Assembly (NCBI GenBank): GCA_943842625.1
Contig: CALTCK010000013.1
Span: 62,001 to 126,000, forward strand
DNA length: 64,000 nt
Source: an uncultured Flavobacteriaceae bacterium
GTDB lineage: Bacteria > Bacteroidota > Bacteroidia > Flavobacteriales > Flavobacteriaceae
Direction of reading: 5' to 3'
How positions within the stretch are numbered: position 1 is the first letter of the stretch; every line of letters starts with the position of its first letter. The notes under the pieces were generated by a model that saw only the letters and a program-made list of their open reading frames with translations, was not told where the DNA came from and made no database searches. Positions 1,208 through 45,973 of this stretch are shown here, piece by piece. A program made the translations under genes and the position numbers.

Positions 1208-3637
1208 TTAATTCTTTTCAATTTTTATATCAACATCTTTCAAAGCTTTTATTTGAGTTTTTACTTCTGCTTCTGTTCCTTCAAAAACTTGCTCTGTAGT
1301 AGTTTCTTTACCATTTTCAGTCATTGTTGTTTTTACAACAGCTTTAGTTATGCCATCATCATTAGCATCCATTCTTACCATAATTTCTTTTTCAATAACT
1401 TCATTTGATATACTCTGCGCCTCAATAGTATTAGTATTTATTTCATGACCTTCTTCATAAGAATGACCTCCTAATATGGGAGCAATTACCAATCCAATTA
1501 AACAAGTAAGTTTAATTAAAATATTCATGGAGGGCCCAGAGGTATCTTTAAATGGATCCCCTACTGTATCTCCGGTAATTGCAGCCTCGTGAGCATCAGA
1601 ACCTTTGTGAGTCATTTCACCATTAATCATAACACCTGCTTCAAAAGATTTTTTAGCATTGTCCCAGGCGCCACCGGCGTTGTTTTGAAAAATTGCCCAA
1701 AGAACACCACTTACAGTAACTCCAGCCATATACCCACCTAACATTTCGGCAATAATCATATTATCCATTCCAAAAATCATAGGTCCGAATGTGATAACTA
1801 ATGGGAATCCAATGGTTAACAAACCTGGTAACATCATTTCTTTTAAAGAAGCTTTTGTTGAAATCGCAACACATTTATCGTACTCTGGTTTTCCGGTACC
1901 TTCCATAATACCTGGAATCTCTTTAAACTGGCGTCTTACTTCATAAACCATTTCCATAGCCGCTTTACCTACAGCATTCATTGCTAATGCAGAAAATACT
2001 ACAGGAACCATTCCTCCAACAAATAACATCGCTAAAACAGGAGCTTTAAAAATGTTAATTCCATCAATTCCTGTAAAAGTCACATAAGCAGCAAAAAGTG
2101 CTAATGATGTTAATGCAGCTGATGCAATTGCAAATCCCTTTCCTGTGGCAGCAGTTGTATTACCCACTGAATCTAATATATCTGTTCGCTCCCTAACGAT
2201 TGGATCTTGTTCACTCATTTCGGCAATACCTCCTGCATTATCCGCGATGGGCCCAAAAGCATCAATAGCCAATTGCATAGCAGTCGTTGCCATCATAGCT
2301 GAAGCTGCCATTGCAACACCATAAAAACCTGCCAAAGCGTAAGAAGACCATATTGCTGCAGCAAATAAAATTACTGTTGGAAATGTAGAAATCATACCTG
2401 TTGCCAGACCTGCAATAATATTGGTACCGGCTCCTGTTGCTGATTTTTGAACTATATTTAAAATTGGTTTTTTACCTAGACCTGTATAATACTCTGTTAC
2501 TGAAGATATAACACCACCTACAAATAAACCAACTAAAGTTGCGTAAAACACACGCATTGCGGTAATACTTATTAATCCTTCACCGAAAAAATGCATTTTC
2601 ATAGTTTCTGGCAGCATATAGTTTACTAGAACATAACAAGAAATTGCAACTAAAGCGATTGAGAACCAGTTTCCCTTATTTAAAGCCCCCATAACTTGAG
2701 ACTCTTTAGCATCATTGGATTTAATTTTTACTAACATGGTACCTAACATTGAGATGATAATACCGGCACCAGCAATTGCCATTGGCAATAAAATTGGCCC
2801 TATTCCTCCGAAGGCATCATCGATAAAACCACCCATATCCTTTATGATGTAGTTTCCTAAAACCATTGCAGCTAAAACTGTTGCAACATAAGAACCAAAT
2901 AAATCGGCTCCCATTCCTGCAACATCTCCTACATTATCACCTACATTATCAGCAATGGTTGCTGGATTTCGTGGGTCATCCTCAGGGATTCCTGCTTCAA
3001 CTTTTCCAACTAAATCAGCTCCAACATCAGCTGCTTTGGTGTAAATACCTCCTCCAACACGAGCGAATAATGCGATTGATTCAGCTCCTAGAGAGAACCC
3101 TGCTAAAGTTTCCAATACAATAGTCATTTTTTCCACTGAAAAAGCACCACTAGTTCCACCCATAAAAAAGTTATAGAAGAATATAAAAAACATAGTTAAA
3201 CCTAAAACGGCTAAACCAGCTACACCGAGTCCCATCACAGTTCCACCTCCAAAAGATACTTTCAAGGCGTTTGGCAGACTTGTTATTGCTGCCTGTGTGG
3301 TTCTTACGTTTGTTTTTGTTGCTATTTTCATTCCAATATTTCCTGCAAAAGCAGAAAATATTGCTCCCAGAATAAAGGCTATTACGATTAGCCAATGTGT
3401 GGAAGGTACTATAGTAGAAACAATAAAAAGTAAAACACTCACTACAGCAACAAAAATAGCTAATAATCTATATTCAGCATTTAAGAAAGCTAAGGCTCCC
3501 TCATAAATATGATCTGAAATTTCTTTCATTTTACCATCACCTGCATCTTGCTTCATCACCCAAGATTTTTTCGTTAACATATATGCTAACCCTATTAGTG
3601 CCGCTACTATTGGCATATAAATCATCATTGATTCCAT
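1208..3637 (-). CDS. hppA: membrane-bound ion-translocating pyrophosphatase
   Basis: Hydrolyses cytoplasmic pyrophosphate and pumps H+ and/or Na+ across the inner membrane. The protein has about 16 hydrophobic segments. The pyrophosphate-binding stretch around residues 210-245 contains [18 protein letters not shown] and NVGDNVGD, and a second acidic motif (DNAGGIAEM) lies near residue 460. The segment [10 protein letters not shown] carries Ala where K+-independent enzymes have Lys, which points to the K+-dependent subclass (family knowledge). At 809 residues it is longer than usual: after the last membrane helix there is a charged tail of roughly 75 residues. A promoter -7 box lies just upstream. 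It ends at the terminator shared with the kinase gene. Confidence 0.95.
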
Positions 3638-34525: not shown

Positions 34526-35914
34526 ATGAAAAGTGCAAAATCCTATATTTTAGAAAACAAACAACGTTTTATTGACGAGTTAATTGACTTACTTAAAATA
34601 CCCTCGATTAGTGCGGATTCTAAGTATAAAGCAGCTGTTATTCGTACTGCTGACCTTGTAAAAAACAGTCTTAAAAAAGCAGGATGTGATCAAGTTGAAA
34701 TTTGTGAAACTCCCGGCTACCCTATTGTTTATGGTGAAAAAATAATCGACGCTAATTTACCAACTGTATTGGTATATGGCCATTATGATGTGCAACCGCC
34801 AGACCCAATTAATCTTTGGGACAGTCCTCCTTTTGAGCCTGTTATTAAAACAACCGATTTACACCCTGAAGGAGCTATTTTTGCAAGAGGATCTTGCGAT
34901 GATAAAGGCCAAATGTATATGCACATTAAAGCATTAGAATACATGACCTCTTCCGGGCAATTACCCTGTAATGTAAAATTTATGATTGAAGGGGAAGAAG
35001 AAATTGGAAGTGAAAGTTTAGGATGGTTTGTTGAAAGAAACCAAAAAAAACTTGAAAATGATATTATCTTAATTAGTGACACCGGAATGATTGCCCCTGA
35101 TGTCCCATCTATTACCACAGGTTTAAGAGGATTGAGTTATGTTGAGGTAGAAGTTACAGGGCCTAATAGAGATTTACATAGTGGTTTGTATGGTGGTGCA
35201 GTTGCCAACCCCATCAATATTCTAATCCAAATGATCGCCTCCTTACACGATGAAAATAATCATATAACCATTCCTGGTTTTTATGATCAAGTGGACGAAT
35301 TAACTGTTGAAGAGCGCGCTAAAATGGGAGAGGCGCCATTTAGCTTGGAAGCTTATAAAAAAGCGCTTGACATTGATGATGTTCATGGAGAAAAAGGATA
35401 TACCACCAACGAACGTAATTCAATAAGACCTACGCTAGATGTGAATGGTATATGGGGCGGTTATATTGGTGAGGGTGCAAAAACCGTAATAGCCAGCAAG
35501 GCATATGCTAAAATATCGATGCGATTGGTCCCAAATCAAAATTGGGAAACTATTACCGAATTATTTAAAAATCATTTTGAACGTATAGCGCCAAAGTCAG
35601 TTTCTGTAAAAGTAACCCCTCACCACGGTGGCCAAGCCTATGTAACACCAATCGATTGTTTGGGGTATAAAGCCGCAGAAAAAGCTTATGAGGCAACTTT
35701 TGGAAAAACTCCAATCCCACAACGAAGCGGTGGATCTATTCCTATTGTTGCTTTGTTTGAAAAAGAGTTGAAAAGTAAAACCATTTTAATGGGCTTTGGA
35801 TTGGATAGTGATGCCATACACTCCCCAAATGAACATTTTGGAATTTGGAATTACTTAAAGGGAATCGAAACCATCCCTCAATTTTATCATTATTTTACAG
35901 AAATGAGTACATAA
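34526..35914 (+). CDS. M20-family dipeptidase
   Basis: Zinc-dependent exopeptidase that cleaves dipeptides. Metal ligands are visible as VYGHYDVQPPD (His, Asp) near residue 90, GSCDDKGQ (bridging Asp), EGEEEIGSES (Glu pair) around 155, DTGM near 188, and a His near the C-terminus (DSDAIHSPNEHF). The length of 462 residues fits the M20 dipeptidase group. No signal peptide, so cytoplasmic. It is the first of three genes read in one direction ahead of the hydroxylysine-like fusion gene (57-base gap) and could release single amino acids from imported peptides. Confidence 0.9.
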   Translation: MKSAKSYILENKQRFIDELIDLLKIPSISADSKYKAAVIRTADLVKNSLKKAGCDQVEICETPGYPIVYGEKIIDANLPTVLVYGHYDVQPPDPINLWDSPPFEPVIKTTDLHPEGAIFARGSCDDKGQMYMHIKALEYMTSSGQLPCNVKFMIEGEEEIGSESLGWFVERNQKKLENDIILISDTGMIAPDVPSITTGLRGLSYVEVEVTGPNRDLHSGLYGGAVANPINILIQMIASLHDENNHITIPGFYDQVDELTVEERAKMGEAPFSLEAYKKALDIDDVHGEKGYTTNERNSIRPTLDVNGIWGGYIGEGAKTVIASKAYAKISMRLVPNQNWETITELFKNHFERIAPKSVSVKVTPHHGGQAYVTPIDCLGYKAAEKAYEATFGKTPIPQRSGGSIPIVALFEKELKSKTILMGFGLDSDAIHSPNEHFGIWNYLKGIETIPQFYHYFTEMST

Positions 35915-35971: not shown

Positions 35972-38900
35972 ATGGATTATAATCGTATTAAAATAAGTCT
36001 AGATCAAGCCGAAAAAATTCTTTTAAAAGTATATGGAATTAAAGGCACGGTAAGTCCTTTGCCAGGGTATGTCGATTTTAATTTTAAGATAAAAACAAAA
36101 AAAGAAGAACGATTTGTCTTAAAAATATCTCGACCCAATGAAAATAGAAAGTATCTAGATTATCAACAGAAATTATTACAGTATATCCATCAATCTGATG
36201 AAAAAATTATGGCTCCCAGGGTCCTATTTGATCAAAATGATGAGACGATTTCTGAGATTATTGACGACTACGGAAACAAACGCTATGTAAGAATGCTTAC
36301 CTGGGTTTCAGGTAGGGTTTGGAGTGCTGTAAATCCACAATTAGCAAATTTTCGCCAGAGCCTGGGAGAACAATGTGGTATCTTAACTAAAATACTTGAA
36401 AATTTTGACCATCCCGAGGCGCATTACTATTTTGAATGGGATATTGCTCAAGGTCTCTGGACAAAAAAACACCTACACTTATTTGACGAGCAAAAAAAAG
36501 AAGTAATTAGCTACTTTCAAGACTTATTTGAAGCCTCTCAAGCTTCCTATAAAAAACTTCGCAAAAGTGTGGTCCATAATGACCCCAATGATAACAATAT
36601 GATTGTTTCATTGGATTTACGTAATCCAAAGGCAATCGCTGCAATCGATTATGGAGACGCCATGTATACTCAAACCATTAACGATTTAGCGATTCTTTGC
36701 GCCTATGGTGCTTTTGGACACGAAAATCCTTTAAGTGCATTGTTAGATTTGGTAAAAGGGTATCATTCTAAATTTAAATTAGAAGAAAAAGAATTAGTGC
36801 ATTTATACCATGCCATTGCGATGCGTTTAATTATTATTGTAACCAGGGCAGCAATGAGTAAAATTGAAGAGCCCGATAATCCCTATTTATGGATCAGTGA
36901 AAAACCGGCCTGGAAAGTATTGAACAAATGGTTTTTAATCTCCGCTGATTTTGCCTATTACAGTTTCCGTGATGCCTGTGGTTTTAGTGCACACCCAGAT
37001 GAAAATACTTTTAAAAAATGGGCCGCCTCAAAATCTTTTAAACTTTCAGCGTTGTTTCCAACGATCAATAAAGGTGTGGTGCATCCCCTAGACCTGAGTG
37101 TTTCTAGTAAATGGATGGGTCACGAAAAAGAGTTTAACAACTTAGACTACTTTCAATATAAAATTGATCAAGTACAAAAAAATGAACCGGATAAACTAAT
37201 TGCGGGGGGCTACCTAGAACCTAGATCTATTTACACCACGAACACCTATGACCGTATGGGGAATAATGGTACAGAACGTAGAAGTATTCATCTAGGAATT
37301 GATTATTGGCTCCCAGAAGAAACAGCAGTGCACGCCATTTTGGATGGAGAGGTTGTCCTTGCCGTAAATGACGCTGGGAATAAAGAATACGGTGGCTTAG
37401 TTATTTTAAAACATCAAATAGACGGATGGCTATTTTATACACTTTATGGTCATTTAAGTGTTGCTAGTGCCACTAAAAATAAGAGAGGCCATCAACTTAA
37501 AAAAGGAGATAAAATTGGTGTGTTAGGGAATACTACTGAAAACGGAAATTGGGCACCTCATCTTCATTTTCAAGTTGTATTATCATTGTTAGATTACGAA
37601 TTAGATTTTCCCGGGGTTGCCTATTTTTCTGAAATAACTGTTTGGAAAAGTATTTGTCCAAATCCTAATGTATTATTTAGATCTGATTCCCTAAGTCTAA
37701 AACAATATGCAGACCCAGAAGCACTTAAAAATTACCGCCAGCAACATTTAGGAAAAAGCCTACATCTTCATTATAAAACTCCCATTGAAATGGTTCGGGG
37801 TTCTGGAGTGTTTTTGGTAGATTCGGTTGGAAGAAAATATTTAGATACGGTAAACAATGTGGCCCATGTAGGTCATGAAAATTATGAGGTAGTAAAAGTA
37901 GGACAAGAACAAATGGCGCTGATCAATACCAACACCCGTTATTTGCACGAAAATATTAATAACCTTGCTAAAGAGCTACTGGAAACATTACCGCCAGAAC
38001 TAAATGTGTTTCATTTTGTAAACTCTGGGAGTGAAGCAAATGAATTGGCGGTTAGGATGGCAAAAACTATAACCGGTGAAAAAGACATGATTGTAAGCGA
38101 AGCAGGCTACCACGGGAACACCAATACCTGTGTTGCTATTAGCTCCTATAAATTTGACGGAAAAGGAGGCCAAGGTGCACCAGAATATACGCACGTTTTT
38201 CCCTTACCCGATAAATTTAGAGGAAAATACAGAGGAAATGATACCACGGAAGAGTATGTGGAAGAAGTGCAGAAACAACTAAAAAATATAACTCGTAAAA
38301 GCCGAAATGTTGCCGGCTTTATAATAGAACCCATTATTAGCTGTGGTGGGCAAATTGTATTGCCTGAGGGGTTTTTAAAAAAATCATACCAGGCTGTAAG
38401 AAATTCCGGAGGGCTTTGTATTTCTGACGAAATCCAAACAGGTTGTGGGCGTATGGGAAAAACATTTTGGGGCTTTCAATTACATGATGTTATTCCTGAC
38501 ATCGTGACTATCGGTAAACCACTTGGAAATGGGCATCCAGTTGCTGCGGTAGTCTGCACACAACAGGTAGCAAAGCAATTTGCTAATGGCATGGAGTACT
38601 TCAATACTTTTGGAGGAAATCCTGTTTCCTGCGCTATAGGAGCCGAGGTTATTAGAACCGTAAAAAGAGAGCAACTTCAAAAAAATGCTTTGGAAATTGG
38701 CGCCTACTTAAAAAAAGAATTATTAGCCTTGGCAACACAATTCCCTATTATTGGGGATGTTAGAGGTGAAGGGCTTTTTCTTGGCATCGAACTGGTGGAT
38801 AAAAATCTAAACCCGCTTGCCAATCATGCCGATTATATAGCCAACCGAATGAAAGATCATGGTATTTTGATGAGTACCGATGGTCCCGATCACAATGTAT

Positions 38901-39001
38901 TAAAAATAAAACCTCCCATGGTTTTCTCGCTTCAAAATGCAAAAGAATTATTGGGCTACTTAAAAAAAATATTGGAGGAAGATTTTATGAAAAATTTTTA
39001 A
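35972..39001 (+). CDS. three-domain fusion: APH-type kinase, M23 peptidase, class III aminotransferase-fold lyase
   Basis: 1009 residues. Residues 1-335: aminoglycoside-phosphotransferase-like kinase with His202-x-Asp204-x4-Asn209 ([10 protein letters not shown]) and Asp226 (IDYGD). Residues 410-560: M23/LytM domain with complete metal site His440-x3-Asp444 (HLGIDY) and His530-x-His532, plus His494. Residues 590-1009: class III PLP enzyme with Asp819 ([12 protein letters not shown]) and Lys849 ([11 protein letters not shown]). Hydroxylysine kinase (an APH relative) and 5-phosphohydroxylysine phospho-lyase (class III) are consecutive enzymes, as are ethanolamine kinase and its phospho-lyase; the hydroxyproline operon close by favours hydroxylysine (inference). 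The role of the M23 part is unclear. Confidence 0.85.
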
Positions 39002-39014
39002 ATACTAAAGAACA

Positions 39015-39455
39015 ATGAAAAAAGAAAATTATATTTATTTATTATTAGGTTTATTAGTATGCCTAAGTTGCCAAACACCCACTTCAACAAAACAAGACAA
39101 AGAAGCTATTCTAAAAGTGATGAACGCTCAAGAAAAAGCTTGGTCTAATAACGATTTAGAAGGTTTTATGCAGGGCTACTGGCAAAGTGATTCGTTAACA
39201 TTTTACGGAAGAAATGGGATTACTAAAGGCTGGCAACAAACCTTAACTAATTATAAAAAAGGCTACCCAACCAAAGAGGCCACTGGAACCCTAAATTTTA
39301 AGGTGGAAGCTATTTCAAAAATAAGTAGCGACAGCTACTCCGTTATGGGAGCCTATCATTTAAAAAGAGAAGTTGGCGATGCCAACGGGGTGTTTTTAAT
39401 TATTTTTAAAAAGATTGCGGGGGAATGGAAAATTATTGCAGATATGTCTTGTTGA
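39015..39455 (+). CDS. DUF4440/SnoaL-like lipoprotein
   Basis: Lipoprotein signal with lipobox LVCLSC (Cys19), so probably membrane anchored, followed by an NTF2-like (DUF4440) fold: helix KEAILKVMNAQEKAWSNNDLEGFMQGYW, then TFYGRNGITKGWQQTL and strands ending GEWKIIADMSC. No catalytic residues can be assigned. It follows the fusion gene by 13 bases and is convergent with the hydroxyproline operon (6-base gap). Confidence 0.82.
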   Translation: MKKENYIYLLLGLLVCLSCQTPTSTKQDKEAILKVMNAQEKAWSNNDLEGFMQGYWQSDSLTFYGRNGITKGWQQTLTNYKKGYPTKEATGTLNFKVEAISKISSDSYSVMGAYHLKREVGDANGVFLIIFKKIAGEWKIIADMSC

Positions 39456-39461
39456 TCTGCT

Positions 39462-40709
39462 TTAAAACTTCCTTTCGGGATGAAACGGCTTGATATCTAG
39501 AGACAACTTTTTATCGGAGATTATTTCGGAAACCAATTTTCCTGTTGGGGGTCCCAAACTCCAACCCATCATTGCATGCCCCGAAGCAATAATTAAATTT
39601 TTATATTTATGAGTTCTGCCAATATAGGGCAATCCGTCTGGAGAGCAGGGTCGCAAGCCAAAATCAGCGGTTGCTTCTTCCTCTTTAGTTAGAGACAATC
39701 CTTGGTAATAATTTGATACGGACTTACTGATGGCTTTTACTCTTTTAGGGTTAATGGTATCATTTATTCCTGCAAGTTCCATAGTGCCTGCAAAACGTGT
39801 AAAACCATTCATTGGCGTAACGGCAACTTTAGCTTCAACTAATAGTGCAGGAATCGTTATTCCAGTTTCTCTTTCTGTATTTATTCGATACCCTTTTCCT
39901 GCCTGTATAGGAATTTTAACTCCTAATTTACGAGTTAGCAAAGGACTCCACGAGCCAGCAGCAATTAGCACTTCGTCTGCTTTTAGTTTTCTTTTAGTGG
40001 TCATCACTTCTTTTATAGCATCTTTAGAAATGACTAAATCTTGAACTTTTTCATGGGTATAGAAGGTAACTCCCTTTTCCTTTAAATAAGATACCATTTC
40101 TGCCATAAATTCTTTAGGAGTCATGTGGGCATCGGAATCAAAATAAACGGCTCCCTTACAATCTATAGCTGCATCAGGTTCCATTTTTTTGACCTCTTCA
40201 GCAGTTATATGATTAACATTCAAGCCTTCTTTAATTGCTCTCTGCCCTACCTCCCATTCTTCTTCTCCTGCTTTATCAGTCTTATATAACATCAGGAGTC
40301 CTTTTCGCTCGTAATGAAAATTAAAATCTCCTGATTGCTTAATTTCTTCATAAAGCGTTCTCCCTAAAATATTGATCTCTTTAATAATAGGAATTGCTTT
40401 TTCTACCTTCGAAGCAGTTGCCGATTTTTTAAACGCCCAGGCCCATTTTAAAAAATCTTTATCCAAACGAGGTTTCACATAAAAAGGACTAGCAGTATCA
40501 AACATCCATTTGAGCCCTTTAGTAATCATACCGGGAGCTGATAACGGAATGATATGGCTAGGGGTAATGTATCCTGCATTGACAAAGGAGGCTCCTTTGG
40601 TCATACCCGATTGATCAATGATGGTAACAGCACATCCTTCTTTCTGGAGGTAATATGCAGAACATAACCCAATGATTCCTCCCCCAATAATTACAACCTC
40701 TTTACTCAT
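39462..40709 (-). CDS. FAD-dependent D-amino acid (D-hydroxyproline) dehydrogenase
   Basis: DadA/HypO-type flavoprotein: FAD-binding IIGGGIIGLCSAYYL at residues 7-21, substrate/FAD segment AGYITPSHIIPLSAPG, and C-terminal GLRPCSPDGLPYIGRTHKYKN and ASGHAMMGWSLGPPTGK. By position in the operon it should oxidise cis-4-hydroxy-D-proline to pyrroline-4-hydroxy-2-carboxylate (inference from context; related DadA enzymes act on other D-amino acids). 415 residues, five bases after the epimerase gene. Confidence 0.85.
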   Translation of the reverse strand: MSKEVVIIGGGIIGLCSAYYLQKEGCAVTIIDQSGMTKGASFVNAGYITPSHIIPLSAPGMITKGLKWMFDTASPFYVKPRLDKDFLKWAWAFKKSATASKVEKAIPIIKEINILGRTLYEEIKQSGDFNFHYERKGLLMLYKTDKAGEEEWEVGQRAIKEGLNVNHITAEEVKKMEPDAAIDCKGAVYFDSDAHMTPKEFMAEMVSYLKEKGVTFYTHEKVQDLVISKDAIKEVMTTKRKLKADEVLIAAGSWSPLLTRKLGVKIPIQAGKGYRINTERETGITIPALLVEAKVAVTPMNGFTRFAGTMELAGINDTINPKRVKAISKSVSNYYQGLSLTKEEEATADFGLRPCSPDGLPYIGRTHKYKNLIIASGHAMMGWSLGPPTGKLVSEIISDKKLSLDIKPFHPERKF

Positions 40710-40714
40710 TATAT

Positions 40715-41725
40715 TTAAATTACCTGGAAACCGTGTGCGTATGGATCATCTTGATCATCAATAATAATGGTATTGTATCCATATACTTTTGCCCATCCTT
40801 GAATACTAGGAATAATTGCTGTTTTCCCATCCAATATTGTTTCTTCTTCAATTCTTCCTACAAAAGTGGAACCTATAAAACTTTCATGAACAAATTCATC
40901 CCCCAGTCTTAATTTTCCTTTTGCATATAATTGTGCCATCCTTGCCGATGTTCCCGTACCACATGGGCTTCTATCAATAGCTTTATCTCCATAAAACACC
41001 GCATTTCTTCCAGACGATTTTGGATCTATTGGATCGCCGGTCCATAATAGATGACTAACATCTCTAATGGTATCATTTTCTGGATGGATAAACCTATTTG
41101 GGTATTTGTCATTGATTCGTTTTCTTATAATTTGAGAATATTGAATTAATTTACCCGCCGTAAAATCTTGTACTCCACTAAAGTTGGTCTGTGGGTCTAT
41201 TATAGCATAATAGTTTCCTCCATAAGAAACATCAAAACTAATGTCACCTAATTCTGGACAATCAATCGTTAAATTTTCAGCAGCTAAATACGATTTTACA
41301 TTTTTTAGTTTAACCCATTCTACCTTATTATTAGTCTCTTTATATTCTATTTCTACTAAACCTGCAGGTGTTTCCATTTTGATGAATCCTGGTTTTTTGG
41401 GTATCACTAAACCTTCTTCAACCGCAATAGTAATCGCTCCAATAGTTCCATGCCCACACATGGGCAAACAACCCGAAGTTTCTATAAATAATATTCCAAA
41501 GTCGTTTTCGGGATTTTGAGGTTTAAAAAAGAAACTACCGCTCATCATATCGTGGCCTCTAGGTTCAAACATTAACCCTTTTCGGATCCAGTCGAATTCT
41601 TTAATAAAGTGTTGTCTTTTTTCACTCATGGAATTCCCTAAAAGATCTGGGCGACCCGAAGTAACTACTCTTACTGGGTTTCCGCAAGTATGCGCATCAA
41701 TACATTTAAAAATGGCTCTACTCAT
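40715..41725 (-). CDS. 4-hydroxyproline 2-epimerase (proline racemase family)
   Basis: Both catalytic Cys are present: Cys90 (PMCGHGTIG) and Cys255 (DRSPCGTGTSARM). That pair distinguishes epimerases/racemases from the dehydratases that have Ser or Thr at the first site. Next to Cys90 the His/Gly pattern is that of 4-hydroxyproline epimerases, and the neighbours confirm it. Turns trans-4-hydroxy-L-proline into cis-4-hydroxy-D-proline in the cytoplasm. 336 residues; the start overlaps the end of the DUF885 gene by 8 bases. Confidence 0.9.
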   Translation of the reverse strand: MSRAIFKCIDAHTCGNPVRVVTSGRPDLLGNSMSEKRQHFIKEFDWIRKGLMFEPRGHDMMSGSFFFKPQNPENDFGILFIETSGCLPMCGHGTIGAITIAVEEGLVIPKKPGFIKMETPAGLVEIEYKETNNKVEWVKLKNVKSYLAAENLTIDCPELGDISFDVSYGGNYYAIIDPQTNFSGVQDFTAGKLIQYSQIIRKRINDKYPNRFIHPENDTIRDVSHLLWTGDPIDPKSSGRNAVFYGDKAIDRSPCGTGTSARMAQLYAKGKLRLGDEFVHESFIGSTFVGRIEEETILDGKTAIIPSIQGWAKVYGYNTIIIDDQDDPYAHGFQVI

Positions 41726-43454
41726 TCTTATTTTTTGTGATGTAATTATTGATTCTTTTTTCGAGTATTGACAAGGTAACAGTTCCCTGTTCTAGAACAA
41801 CTTCATGGAATTCTCTAATGTCAAAATTTGCTCCTAATTCTTTTTCTGCTTTTGTTCTAAGCTCTCTTATTTTAAGCTCTCCAATTTTATAAGATAAGGC
41901 TTGACCGGGCCAAGAAATGTAGCGATCGGTTTCGGTATTAATTTCATGAATAGAAAGCGCCGTGTTTTTTGACATGTATTCAATCACTTGATCACGGGTC
42001 CAGCCTTTAGCATGGATTCCAGTGTCCACTACCAGTCTGCAAGCTCTCCACATTTCATATGTTAGTTTTCCGAATTGTTCGTAAGCAGTGGTGTACATTC
42101 CCATTTCTTCAGCTAAAAACTCACAATACAATCCCCAACCTTCCCCGTATGCAGACAAATAAGTATTCTTTCTAAATTGTGGGATGCTGTCCCCTAACTC
42201 AAGGTTTAAGGAGCCTTGTAAATGATGTCCTGGTACTGCTTCATGAACCGTAAGAGACGGTAAAACATATAAAGGTCTACTTGGTAAATCATAGGTGTTT
42301 ACCCAATAATACCCGGGATCTGTACTATTTTTACTGGTACCTACATAGCGTCCCGTGGTATACTTAGGAGCAATCGCAGCTGGTACGGCCGCTACTCCAT
42401 ACGGTTTTCTTGGTAAGGTCTTAAAAAATCTTGGTAATTGTTCGTCGGCTCTTTTTGCCATATCTCTAGCAATCATTAACAATTGCTCAGGACTGGTTGC
42501 GTAAAACTGAGGATCGGTTCTTAAAAAGTCAAGGAATTCTGAAAAACTACCTTGAAATTCTAATTCCAAAATAATTTTTTCCATCTCGTTTTTTATTCTA
42601 GCAACTTCATCTAAACCAATTTGATGAATTGCATCTGCAGAGTACTGAGTACTCGTTGTATAATAATTGATTCTGTTTTGATAATATTCTTTTCCATTTG
42701 GTGTTTCTGAAATTCCAATAGCGCTTCTTGTTTTAGGATAATACTCCTCTTCAAAAAAAGTTTTTACCACCTTAAATTGCGGAATTACATGTTTCGTTAT
42801 CGCTACTTCGGCAGCTGTTAAAATGGAATCTTTTTGAGATAAGCTTAGAGCTCTCGGTAAGTCATTAAAAGGAGTATAAAAATAACTTTCTTTAAAATCA
42901 CTAACGATATGATCATTATAACTTGATTCGTAGCCATTAAAAATAACTCGTGGTTGAGAGACTCCTTTTTCTAATCCTTCACGCAATAAAGGAAGAAATT
43001 GGTTAACCCGATCTGGAATTGCATTTAGTTGATCTAAATATCTTTTAACTTGATTATAATTTTGAAAAGGTCGAACGATAAAGGGAAAGCTAGTATGAAA
43101 ACCGGAATCTGAAAGTAATGGATTTAAAAATCGTTCAAAATCATAATAATCAATGGTATCTTGTAATTTAAATTTTAATAATTCTAAGGAGATAGATTCT
43201 GTTTCTGATAGGTTTTTAGGATTGATTTTGTTTAATTGTTTTAATTGTTTTTTAGCATAATTTGCTTCCTTTTTAAATTGCTCTTTAGAGAATAATCCCA
43301 AGGGATACTTTTTCCAATCATAGGTATTTCGTTCTTCAATTTCAGTAATCACTTTATTTAATAATTCCGAGTCTGGATTTTCAAAATTTATTGAAAAACT
43401 CATAAAGACAAGTCCTAATAAAAAAGCAAGATTTCGAAAAAACTTCATAAACAT
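41718..43454 (-). CDS. DUF885 family putative metallopeptidase, secreted
   Basis: A signal peptide (residues about 1-22, FFRNLAFLLGLVFMSFS) precedes a 555-residue DUF885 domain. The putative zinc motif is HEAVPGHHLQG near residue 405, and LSAYGEGWGLYCEFLAEEMG follows as in this gluzincin-like family. DUF885 proteins are inferred to be peptidases; substrates are not established. In this operon it could free hydroxyproline from peptides (inference). The start touches the stop of the aldehyde dehydrogenase gene. A second in-frame ATG two codons later is equally possible. Confidence 0.85.
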   Translation of the reverse strand: MFMKFFRNLAFLLGLVFMSFSINFENPDSELLNKVITEIEERNTYDWKKYPLGLFSKEQFKKEANYAKKQLKQLNKINPKNLSETESISLELLKFKLQDTIDYYDFERFLNPLLSDSGFHTSFPFIVRPFQNYNQVKRYLDQLNAIPDRVNQFLPLLREGLEKGVSQPRVIFNGYESSYNDHIVSDFKESYFYTPFNDLPRALSLSQKDSILTAAEVAITKHVIPQFKVVKTFFEEEYYPKTRSAIGISETPNGKEYYQNRINYYTTSTQYSADAIHQIGLDEVARIKNEMEKIILELEFQGSFSEFLDFLRTDPQFYATSPEQLLMIARDMAKRADEQLPRFFKTLPRKPYGVAAVPAAIAPKYTTGRYVGTSKNSTDPGYYWVNTYDLPSRPLYVLPSLTVHEAVPGHHLQGSLNLELGDSIPQFRKNTYLSAYGEGWGLYCEFLAEEMGMYTTAYEQFGKLTYEMWRACRLVVDTGIHAKGWTRDQVIEYMSKNTALSIHEINTETDRYISWPGQALSYKIGELKIRELRTKAEKELGANFDIREFHEVVLEQGTVTLSILEKRINNYITKNKNE

Positions 43455-45039
43455 TTAAATTTTATTGGACGTATTTAAACCATTCACAAATCTGGTAATT
43501 CCTAATGGATTGTTATTTTTTAATTCAGCTGGCAGCAGTTCATTTGGCCAACTTTGGAAACTAAAAGGACGGACCCATCTTTTAACTGAATGCAATCCTA
43601 CAGCCGTAAAACGACTGTCTGTTGACGAAGGGTATGGACCACCATGTAACATCGATGGACAAACCTCAACACCTGTTGGAACCCCATTAAAGATAATTCT
43701 ACCCACTCTATTTTGTAAGGCATCTATAACCGAACTGTATTTTTCGAGCTCCTCTTTTTCTCCCAATACTGTTCCCGTTAATTGACCCTCTAAATGATTA
43801 ATAATACTTTCTAATTCTTCAGAATTTTTACATTCGACCACCATTGAAAAGGGGCCAAAGACTTCTTGATGTAAGGTGGTATTTTCTAAAAAAGTTTCGC
43901 CTTCTACTGTTACTATGGTTTGCCTTGCGTGATTTACTGCTACACTATCATTAAAATCAGCCTTTACTGTCAAACCATCTTGTTGTAAAGCAGTTTGCTT
44001 GTTTCTTTCATAGTTGCCAATAATTGTTGGGTGCAACATACAAGAAGGTTCTAATTTTACTATTTCTGTAGAAAGTACCTTTATAAAATTAGATAAATTA
44101 GCTCCTTTAATTCCAAGAATTAATCCAGGATTGGTACAAAACTGACCGGTCCCTAAAGTAATAGAACCTGCATAGGTTTTAGCCAGGGCTTCCCCATTAT
44201 TTTGAAGAGCTTGCGGCAATAATACCACTGGATTAATACTCCCCATTTCAGCAAACACTGGTATAGGCTCCTCTCTTTGTCCAGCAATATCATACAACGC
44301 TCTTCCTCCTTGAATACTTCCTGTAAAACCGACTGCTTTAATATCTGGATGCGTCACCAATTCGATCCCTACTTCAATACCTGAACTGTTTAAATTAGAA
44401 AACACGCCGTTTGGCATATTTGTTTTTTGAGCAGCTCTGATAATCGCTTCTGCTACCATTTCTCCAGTTCCGGCATGCATTGGGTGCGATTTACAAATTA
44501 CAGGACAACCTGCCGCTAAAGCAGATGCCGTATCACCTCCAGCTGTTGAATAAGCAAATGGAAAATTACTGGCTCCAAATACAACTACAGGCCCTAAAGG
44601 AACCATCATTTTTCGAATATCTTGTTTTGGAATGGGTTTTCTATCTAAATCGGCAGTATCGATGGTCGCTTCTACCCAAGAACCCTCTTCTAGCATAGCA
44701 GCAAAACTTGTTAATTGCCCCATTGTTCTCCCTCTTTCTCCTTTAGCTCTTCCTTCTGGAAGACCCGTTTCAGATTGATACATGGTAATTAAATCGTCTC
44801 CCATGGCTAAAATTTCATCTGCGATGGCTCTTAAAAAAGTTGCTTTTTCAAGACCTGATTTTTTACTAAAGGTCTTAAATGCCTCGGAAGCTAATTGTGC
44901 TGCTTGATTAATTTCTTCAGAAGTTGCTTCTGTGAAAACTTGATTGGTTTTCAATATTTAACTTAGGATTAAACGTTTTATAGGTTTTAGCACCTGTTGC
45001 TGATCGTTGATTCCCAATATGATTTTCACCTGTAATCAT
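43455..45039 (-). pseudogene. 2-oxoglutarate semialdehyde dehydrogenase with N-terminal +1 frameshift
   Basis: NAD(P)+-dependent aldehyde dehydrogenase that would complete hydroxyproline breakdown to 2-oxoglutarate. Motifs: GPVVVFGASNFPFAYSTAGG, AVGFTGSIQGGRAL, catalytic Glu in AEMGSINPVV and Cys in GTGQFCTNPGL. The true N-terminus begins at ATG 45037-45039 (MITGENHIGNQRSATGAKTY, then FNPKLNIENQ) in another frame. One extra A near 44940 separates it from VFTEATSEEINQ. Corrected length 527 residues, as in this family. Translation from the TTG at 44954 would give 499 residues lacking the first helix. It follows the DapA-family gene by 10 bases. Confidence 0.82.
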
Positions 45040-45049
45040 TTTATTATTT

Positions 45050-45973
45050 TTAATTATTTGTTAGGTTTTTATAAGCTGGTAATTGAGGTCTGTTTTTTAA
45101 ACCCTCTTCAATCACTTTCAACACCTGTGCTCTTTCAGAACCAACCAAAGGCAAACGAGGGGCTCTAACCTGTTCAGATCCTATACCCGTTGCTACTTCT
45201 GCTAATTTAATGTTTTGTACTAATTTAGAGTTAATATCTAATTCTAATAAGGGTAAAAACCACCTATAAATCGCTAAAGCCTCTTGAGTTTTTCCCGCTT
45301 TTTGAAGCTCATAAATAGCAACAGTTTCGCTCGGAAAGGCACAAACCAGTCCTGCAATCCAGCCATCGGCTCCCATCAATAAACTTTCCAAGGCTAAAGT
45401 GTCCACTCCGGTCATTATTTTTAATCGGTTTCCAAACCTATTTTTAATCCTAGTTACATTTGAGATATCTCTTGTGGATTCTTTTACCGCCTGAATGGTC
45501 TCACATTTTAATAATTCCTCAAACATATCTAAACTCACCTCAGTCTTGTAATCTACTGGATTGTTATAAACCATGATGGGAAGGGCACTATTCAAGGCCA
45601 CCGCCTTAAAATATTCTACCACCTCTCTATTTCCAGCGCTATATCGCATGGGAGGAAGCATCATTAAACCACTTGCTCCGTCTTCTTCGGCCTTATTGGC
45701 TGCCATAATTGCACCCTTTGTCGTTTGCTCTGCAATGTTCATCATAACCGGAACTTTTCCTGCAACAAATTTCACCGTTTCTCTTGTTAATATTCTTTTT
45801 TCGGAGTCGTCTAAAGTACTCGCTTCCCCCAAGGTGCCTCCCAGAACAATACCGTGAACTCCTGCGTCTAATTGGCTGTTTATATTTTTTAAAAATAACT
45901 CTAAATCTAAAGTATCTTCCTTAGTAAATTTAGTAGTAACTGCTGGCATTACGCCTTCCCATTTAAATTTCAT
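45050..45973 (-). CDS. DapA-family lyase, probable pyrroline-4-hydroxy-2-carboxylate deaminase
   Basis: A dihydrodipicolinate synthase-family TIM barrel: GGTLGEASTLDDSE (carboxylate-binding loop, residues 45-58), Tyr136 (VYNNPVDY) and Schiff-base Lys164 (QAVKEST). Family members open or deaminate keto acids; with the epimerase, dehydrogenase and semialdehyde dehydrogenase beside it, the role should be the deaminase that yields 2-oxoglutarate semialdehyde (inference from context). 307 residues. Confidence 0.87.
   Translation of the reverse strand: MKFKWEGVMPAVTTKFTKEDTLDLELFLKNINSQLDAGVHGIVLGGTLGEASTLDDSEKRILTRETVKFVAGKVPVMMNIAEQTTKGAIMAANKAEEDGASGLMMLPPMRYSAGNREVVEYFKAVALNSALPIMVYNNPVDYKTEVSLDMFEELLKCETIQAVKESTRDISNVTRIKNRFGNRLKIMTGVDTLALESLLMGADGWIAGLVCAFPSETVAIYELQKAGKTQEALAIYRWFLPLLELDINSKLVQNIKLAEVATGIGSEQVRAPRLPLVGSERAQVLKVIEEGLKNRPQLPAYKNLTNN

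Follow-up and report, generated by a model that had tools for sequence, protein, structure and literature searches.

Hydroxylysine and its glucose-galactose (Glc-Gal) disaccharide are marks of animal collagen. The mammalian hydroxylysine kinase and 5-phosphohydroxylysine phospho-lyase are, as reportedly described by Veiga-da-Cunha in 2012, separate proteins. AGXT2L1 and AGXT2L2 are phospho-lyases of this kind (PMC9283133), and collagen hydroxylysine carries Glc-alpha1,2-Gal (PMC8626586). A Colwellia collagen-utilisation cluster (PMC7883544) groups hydroxyproline epimerase, D-hydroxyproline dehydrogenase, deaminase and semialdehyde dehydrogenase. Among the matches listed from open-licence papers, no bacterial genes for the use of hydroxylysine or Glc-Gal-hydroxylysine were seen. 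The window analysed here is a stretch of 64,000 nucleotides from an uncultured Flavobacteriaceae bacterium (contig CALTCK010000013.1). It contains an open reading frame (ORF; 35972-39001, forward strand, ATG start) encoding a protein of 1009 amino acids (aa), in which an APH-type kinase, an M23 peptidase and a class III pyridoxal phosphate (PLP) enzyme are fused. This protein is proposed to be a cytoplasmic hydroxylysine kinase/phospho-lyase in a collagen catabolism locus, a reading to which we assign a probability of about 0.72.

The three-domain fusion described in the initial annotation was confirmed by the ORF and by Pfam, with APH at aa 27-265 (E 7.7e-21), Peptidase_M23 at aa 439-535 (E 3.7e-17) and Aminotran_3 at aa 603-1001 (E 1.9e-80). 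An assembly or frameshift artefact was ruled out by near-full-length homologues in many genomes. As had also been claimed, the key residues of both outer domains are present (K51, H202/D204/N209 and D226 in the kinase, D819 and K849 in the PLP domain), the M23 site is intact (H440, D444, H494, H530, H532) and no signal peptide was seen when the N-terminus was inspected by eye. The kinase belongs to the APH family and has the HxDxxxxN and second Asp motifs of an HYKK-type enzyme; compared by sequence with solved structures, it had no significant relative. Structure prediction, proposed in the same annotation as a check, gave with AlphaFold2 (52 aligned sequences) a mean predicted local distance difference test (pLDDT) of 91.4 and a predicted template modelling score (pTM) of 0.91.

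Sequence comparison supports the C-terminal domain as phospho-lyase type, with human ETNPPL as its closest solved relative. ETNPPL scored 417 bits and phospholyase A1RDF1 299, followed by dialkylglycine decarboxylase at 177. The same two enzymes rank first in a fold search, 6tor (human ETNPPL) with a template modelling (TM) score of 0.93 and 47% identity, and 5g4i (A1RDF1) with 0.92 and 37%. On a quickly built tree (108 rows), many of whose inner branches are weak, the window domain groups with other fusions, ETNPPL lies just outside (support 86) and A1RDF1 and a Klebsiella aminotransferase come next; three of the genome's own class III enzymes stand apart (99, long branches). In this comparison, which left PHYKPL outside, ETNPPL and A1RDF1 are nearer to the domain than the other class III enzymes are, and the PLP lysine is kept. 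An ordinary omega-aminotransferase of the GabT/ArgD type, with the kinase acting on something unrelated, shares the fold superfamily, and Pfam says only Aminotran_3; yet it is very improbable given the bit-score gap, the tree and the occurrence of kinase and aminotransferase as adjacent separate genes (L074, L181). A placement with such enzymes, which the initial annotation had named as fatal to its assignment, did not occur, as judged by the bit scores and the separate position in the tree, and the fold search likewise led to rejection of an ordinary transaminase. The pairing of kinase and phospho-lyase in one chain is supported.

The substrate was approached through gene context. From 120 loci (L047-L166), 117 with a recognised anchor were retained (L065, L071 and L086 were dropped); 116 are distinct by C-terminus, many come from one bacterial family, and flanks are partly short, with 6 kb on both sides in 79. 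Within 10 kb of the fusion, PF05544 genes (here HypE) were found in 29 loci, DAO in 23, OCD in 12, GH63-like in 20 and GH2 in 20. HypE, OCD, GH63 or GH2 occurred in 46 of the 117, and a hydroxyproline-type gene together with a glycosidase in eight; in 21 loci, a GH63 or GH2 gene lay on the strand of the fusion at a distance of no more than 200 bp. Locus L048, from the same genus as the window, has the row OCD-HypE-GH63-fusion-GH2-SSF with overlaps or gaps up to 14 bp, continuing into DUF4440-S37 (up to about 30 bp for the whole row). The rows of L090 and L101 are fuller, that of L090 being OCD-HypE-GALM-GH63-GH2-fusion-GH2-SSF with overlaps or gaps up to 10 bp. The OCD type, taken from L108, is a pyrroline-2-carboxylate reductase over cut-off. 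Within HypE, the window member is a 4-hydroxyproline epimerase over cut-off, and the upstream type tested (L117) is nearer to trans-3-hydroxyproline dehydratase, below cut-off. The nearest solved relative of the GH63-like enzyme, which falls below its NCBIfam cut-off, is YgjK; an E. coli YgjK variant is reported to make Glc-alpha1,2-Gal. Since collagen hydroxylysine bears this disaccharide, an alpha-glucosidase and a beta-galactosidase beside a kinase/phospho-lyase are what the residue would need. N-termini of the neighbouring GH63, GH2, GH42, S37 and DUF885 proteins, among those inspected, are mostly signal- or lipobox-like. The glycosidase and HypE contexts (17 and 21 of 95 rows) each require about 12 changes on the tree, a rough figure because the tree is quick and its inner branches weak.

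The initial annotation had left the substrate between hydroxylysine and ethanolamine, and the gene context favours the former. With ethanolamine or another amino alcohol, the kinase would form phosphoethanolamine and the phospho-lyase would release acetaldehyde, ammonia and phosphate. The best solved relative, human ethanolamine-phosphate phospho-lyase, fits such a reaction, and some Alphaproteobacterial fusions adjoin a BCCT transporter with an aldehyde dehydrogenase, or a glutamine-synthetase-family gene. However, those recurrent neighbour families that were scanned with Pfam or NCBIfam (the smaller clusters being outside the scan) include no known ethanolamine gene, and glycosidases, hydroxyproline-type enzymes and M24 peptidases recur by the fusion instead, which makes this substrate unlikely.

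The association was compared with controls. In the phylum sample, PF05544 genes were present in 28/36 genomes that have a fusion-family match vs 45/259 that lack one (Fisher p 6e-13, computed with 260 in place of the correct 259 genomes lacking a match). Eight genomes contain a close GH63 homologue (E < 1e-140); four of them have a fusion-family match, and all four fusions lie beside the GH63 gene or one gene away. In a matched set of 40 genomes, a GH63, GH2, GH42, HypE or OCD homologue lay within 10 kb in 14/40 fusion loci vs 0/40 control loci around another class III aminotransferase (p 3e-5), and an M24 peptidase in 10/40 vs 0/40 (p 0.001), all of these comparisons being uncorrected for genome kinship. 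One control locus was picked per genome, some loci were short in both groups (control L231, 5.9 kb), the L071 anchor was mis-chosen (a 400-aa ORF) and G133 had only an aminotransferase-type match. The M24 gene is aminopeptidase-P-like and recurs by the fusion in L062, L063, L064, L048 and L101, also where no glycosidase is near.

Comparable arrangements occur in other lineages. Two-domain proteins lacking M23 (L075, L077, L078) are accompanied by GH63 and, in place of GH2, a GH42 beta-galactosidase; SusC/SusD-type genes lie upstream in L075 and L077. In L078 the row GH63-GH42-kinase/lyase starts with an aldehyde dehydrogenase (1463-3016), 70 bp before GH63, which scored 826 bits with the model for L-piperidine-6-carboxylate (= aminoadipate semialdehyde) dehydrogenase (cut-off 730) and 536 bits against solved human relatives (alpha-aminoadipic semialdehyde dehydrogenase). 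By its sequence, this is the enzyme for the predicted product, 2-aminoadipate semialdehyde. The Sinorhizobium pSymB fusion, 37% identical, has amino-acid ABC genes upstream and sugar ABC genes, an MGH1-like glycosidase and GH42 downstream, with no evident signal peptide on either glycosidase. In L061 and L081, HypE, DAO and fusion follow one another on one strand with overlaps or gaps of at most about 40 bp; one ORF upstream of this row is a DHDPS gene. Klebsiella plasmid locus L181 (3940-10356) carries ABC genes, GntR and then APH and aminotransferase as separate genes, and its ArgT-like Lys/Arg/Orn binding protein reached 284 bits (cut-off 256).

In the proposed route, an exported GH63-like alpha-glucosidase and a GH2 or GH42 beta-galactosidase of the relatives would strip Glc-alpha1,2-Gal-beta off hydroxylysine, and a symporter or ABC importer would bring the product into the cell. 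Within the cytoplasm, the M23 domain would probably free both amines by cleaving short peptides that contain hydroxylysine or by removing an acyl group from the side-chain amine. The APH domain would then phosphorylate the 5-hydroxyl, and the PLP domain would bind the adjacent 6-amine and eliminate ammonia and phosphate, yielding 2-aminoadipate semialdehyde, which would enter lysine degradation. A complete bacterial route for glycosylated hydroxylysine, with alpha-glucosidase, beta-galactosidase and a single polypeptide whose cytoplasmic M23 domain releases hydroxylysine from peptides and hands it to the kinase/phospho-lyase, is a tentative and rather doubtful proposal; if true, an M23 enzyme has exchanged wall lysis for a role in amino acid metabolism.

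Several observations weigh against the hydroxylysine reading. The own genome is a metagenome-assembled genome (17 contigs, 1.94 Mb in total) with a completeness of 83.8%, and the named genomes nearest to it are Flavobacteriaceae. In it, neither a GH63-like enzyme nor GH2 (for which there was no positive control) was found, and a close aminoadipate-semialdehyde dehydrogenase was not found either: its best NF050084 match reached 240 bits against a cut-off of 730, with 29% identity to the L078 enzyme, and from a neighbouring ORF looks like a tryptophan-pathway enzyme. Near the fusion, such a dehydrogenase was present in 2/135 loci (L078 and, on the other strand, L165) and in 0/40 controls, which might be no more than a single-copy gene gives by chance. 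Glycosidase or hydroxyproline neighbours were absent from 26 of the 40 matched-set fusion loci, and four of the five Alphaproteobacterial fusion contexts read show neither kind of gene, so that the substrate may vary between lineages. In three of the four loci read that contain GH63 with GH2, the fusion is missing, and the pair may thus have a general role in Glc-Gal use; in two of these three, a homoserine-kinase-like APH and a LysA-like decarboxylase are encoded between the two glycosidases. Phosphoethanolamine is the substrate of the closest solved relative, and human PHYKPL and HYKK lay outside the sequence comparison. The zero count of M9 collagenase in 39 genomes is uninformative, because 14 control genomes gave nothing either. 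The PF16653 domain of saccharopine dehydrogenases is present in two own-genome genes, which prove little because this domain occurs in other enzymes too.

In loci L186 (2394-9850) and L187 (2469-9863), from genomes without a strong fusion-family match, genes for SusC/SusD-like proteins, GH2, a homoserine-kinase-like APH, a LysA-like decarboxylase (over cut-off in L187) and GH63 stand in a row. Such a row might, though need not, represent a second route for using a lysine-like aglycone.

The M23 domain of the window protein has the family site (HxxxD, a further His, HxH), and its solved relatives are mostly named wall-lytic enzymes. M23 peptidases are usually exported and act on the cell wall, and the fusion departs from the family in its N-terminus, where no export signal was visible. 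All five site residues are kept in 36/36 distinct triples and in 51/52 rows of a second, overlapping alignment (A3; 42-71% identity to the window protein), which argues for M23 catalysis. The exception is L123 (2311-5310, Cellulophaga omnivescoria), which keeps the three zinc ligands and has lost both other histidines; its GH63 and GH2 neighbours remain. APH-aminotransferase proteins of 753-785 aa lack M23 altogether, kinase and aminotransferase form a two-gene pair in L074 and are unlinked genes in G067, and paralogues of 963-967 aa have a decayed M23-like middle (hhalign 95.2%, E 2.9e-8) without the zinc residues. The genomes of three such paralogues (L068, L069, L070) also carry an intact triple. 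Across these M23-less, decayed and split forms, the kinase and the lyase remain the invariant partners, so that M23 is the optional part; its absence from some proteins argues that it is not essential to the pathway.

These data bear on two views of the domain. The favoured one is an accessory M23 that cleaves short hydroxylysine peptides in the cytoplasm, which from the conserved residues we put not far below even odds. A zinc-bound structural linker or sensor between two enzymes, with no working peptidase, is a substantial possibility, though clearly short of an even chance; it accommodates the M23-less proteins (three of which have glycosidase surroundings of the same kind), the decayed paralogues and the pattern of loss in L123. 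Against it stands the retention of all five residues in the triples and in the A3 rows, down to 42% identity, including two histidines that bind no zinc in M23 enzymes. As for the earlier suggestion of a linker or sensor, in most members the domain appears to be more than a linker, given the full site in 51/52 rows, although other members do without it.

The three-domain architecture is already catalogued, without a function, as NCBIfam NF004799 / PRK06148 ('hypothetical protein', subfamily), to which window aa 7-1004 align over positions 10-1011 of 1015. In a profile search with matches counted at E up to 1e-100, nine of 38 other relatives matched, eight over nearly the whole profile; in the ninth, G008, the match starts at position 84, near a contig end. 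Matches were found in 36 of 295 other phylum-sample genomes, nearly full-length in 26, and the cut-off of 1128 was passed in 18/296 phylum-sample genomes and 1/39 relatives. A scan of named genomes gave at least 592 loci, of which the best 80 were kept. Triple-domain ORFs of at least 960 aa were found in 75 of these 80, which belong mainly to Flavobacteriaceae and other Bacteroidota and also include Phycisphaerales, Gammaproteobacteria, Acidobacteriota, Latescibacterota, Fischerbacteria and Desulfohalobiaceae; the fusion is thus present in several phyla. The triple architecture was represented by 36 distinct proteins among 61 ORFs. Plasmid records with a match numbered 387; coverage reached at least 80% in 79, and the best 40 rows were nearly all Sinorhizobium. 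In ten flavobacterial-type loci (L107, L111-L114, L122, L127, L128, L131, L136), an OmpA gene and an rpe gene on the opposite strand come after the fusion in place of collagen-type neighbours.

The features of the window are listed in Table 1. The opposite-strand genes plausibly form a trans-4-hydroxyproline route, as predicted from their family assignments.

Table 1. Domains of the fusion protein and neighbouring genes, with positions in the window.
Feature	Position	Strand	Remarks
N-terminal APH-type kinase domain, proposed hydroxylysine kinase	35972..37006	+	~aa 1-345; HNDPNDNN and IDYGD motifs, K51
M23 peptidase domain	37187..37696	+	~aa 406-575; H440, D444, H494, H530, H532
C-terminal class III PLP domain, phospho-lyase type	37712..38998	+	~aa 581-1009; PLP lysine K849
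M20 dipeptidase directly upstream of fusion	34526..35914	+	NF006053, over cut-off
DUF4440 protein, lipobox-like N-terminus	39015..39455	+	Pfam; recurrent neighbour, 19 loci including the window
FAD amino-acid dehydrogenase (DadA-like), proposed D-hydroxyproline dehydrogenase	39462..40709	-	Pfam; NCBIfam below cut-off
4-hydroxyproline epimerase	40715..41725	-	NF010578, 568 bits, cut-off 376
DUF885 protein, signal-like N-terminal stretch	41718..43454	-	Pfam
Aldehyde dehydrogenase, proposed alpha-ketoglutaric semialdehyde dehydrogenase	43455..44954	-	Pfam; best NCBIfam model far below cut-off
DHDPS-like protein	45050..45973	-	Pfam; NCBIfam below cut-off

The gene context offers a function for a catalogued family that has none, and fits the co-occurrence with hydroxyproline genes; marker genes for bacterial collagen use would follow. 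If true, the presence of a conserved M23 site in a metabolic enzyme that seems to be cytoplasmic would be a new use of this peptidase family.

Compared with PRK06148, the window protein has APH, M23 and Aminotran_3 in the same order and over the full length, although its 1079.5 bits are below the curated cut-off of 1128 and that family has no assigned function. The hydroxyproline-route gene set of the Colwellia cluster resembles the window neighbours, but a hydroxylysine or glycosylated-hydroxylysine step is not described in the available portion of that paper (PMC7883544). PGGHG (PMC8626586) takes glucose off Glc-alpha1,2-Gal-Hyl, as the glucosidase beside the fusion is proposed to do; it belongs to GH65, whereas the glucosidase here is GH63-like with YgjK as nearest solved relative. 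ETNPPL (6tor) and A1RDF1 (5g4i), the closest solved relatives of the C-terminal domain, are chains of 402-499 aa without kinase or peptidase. The mammalian pair HYKK/AGPHD1 and PHYKPL/AGXT2L2 would perform the same two chemical steps with APH (reportedly, for HYKK) and class III folds; these are said to be separate proteins, whereas here both domains are fused with M23 in one chain.
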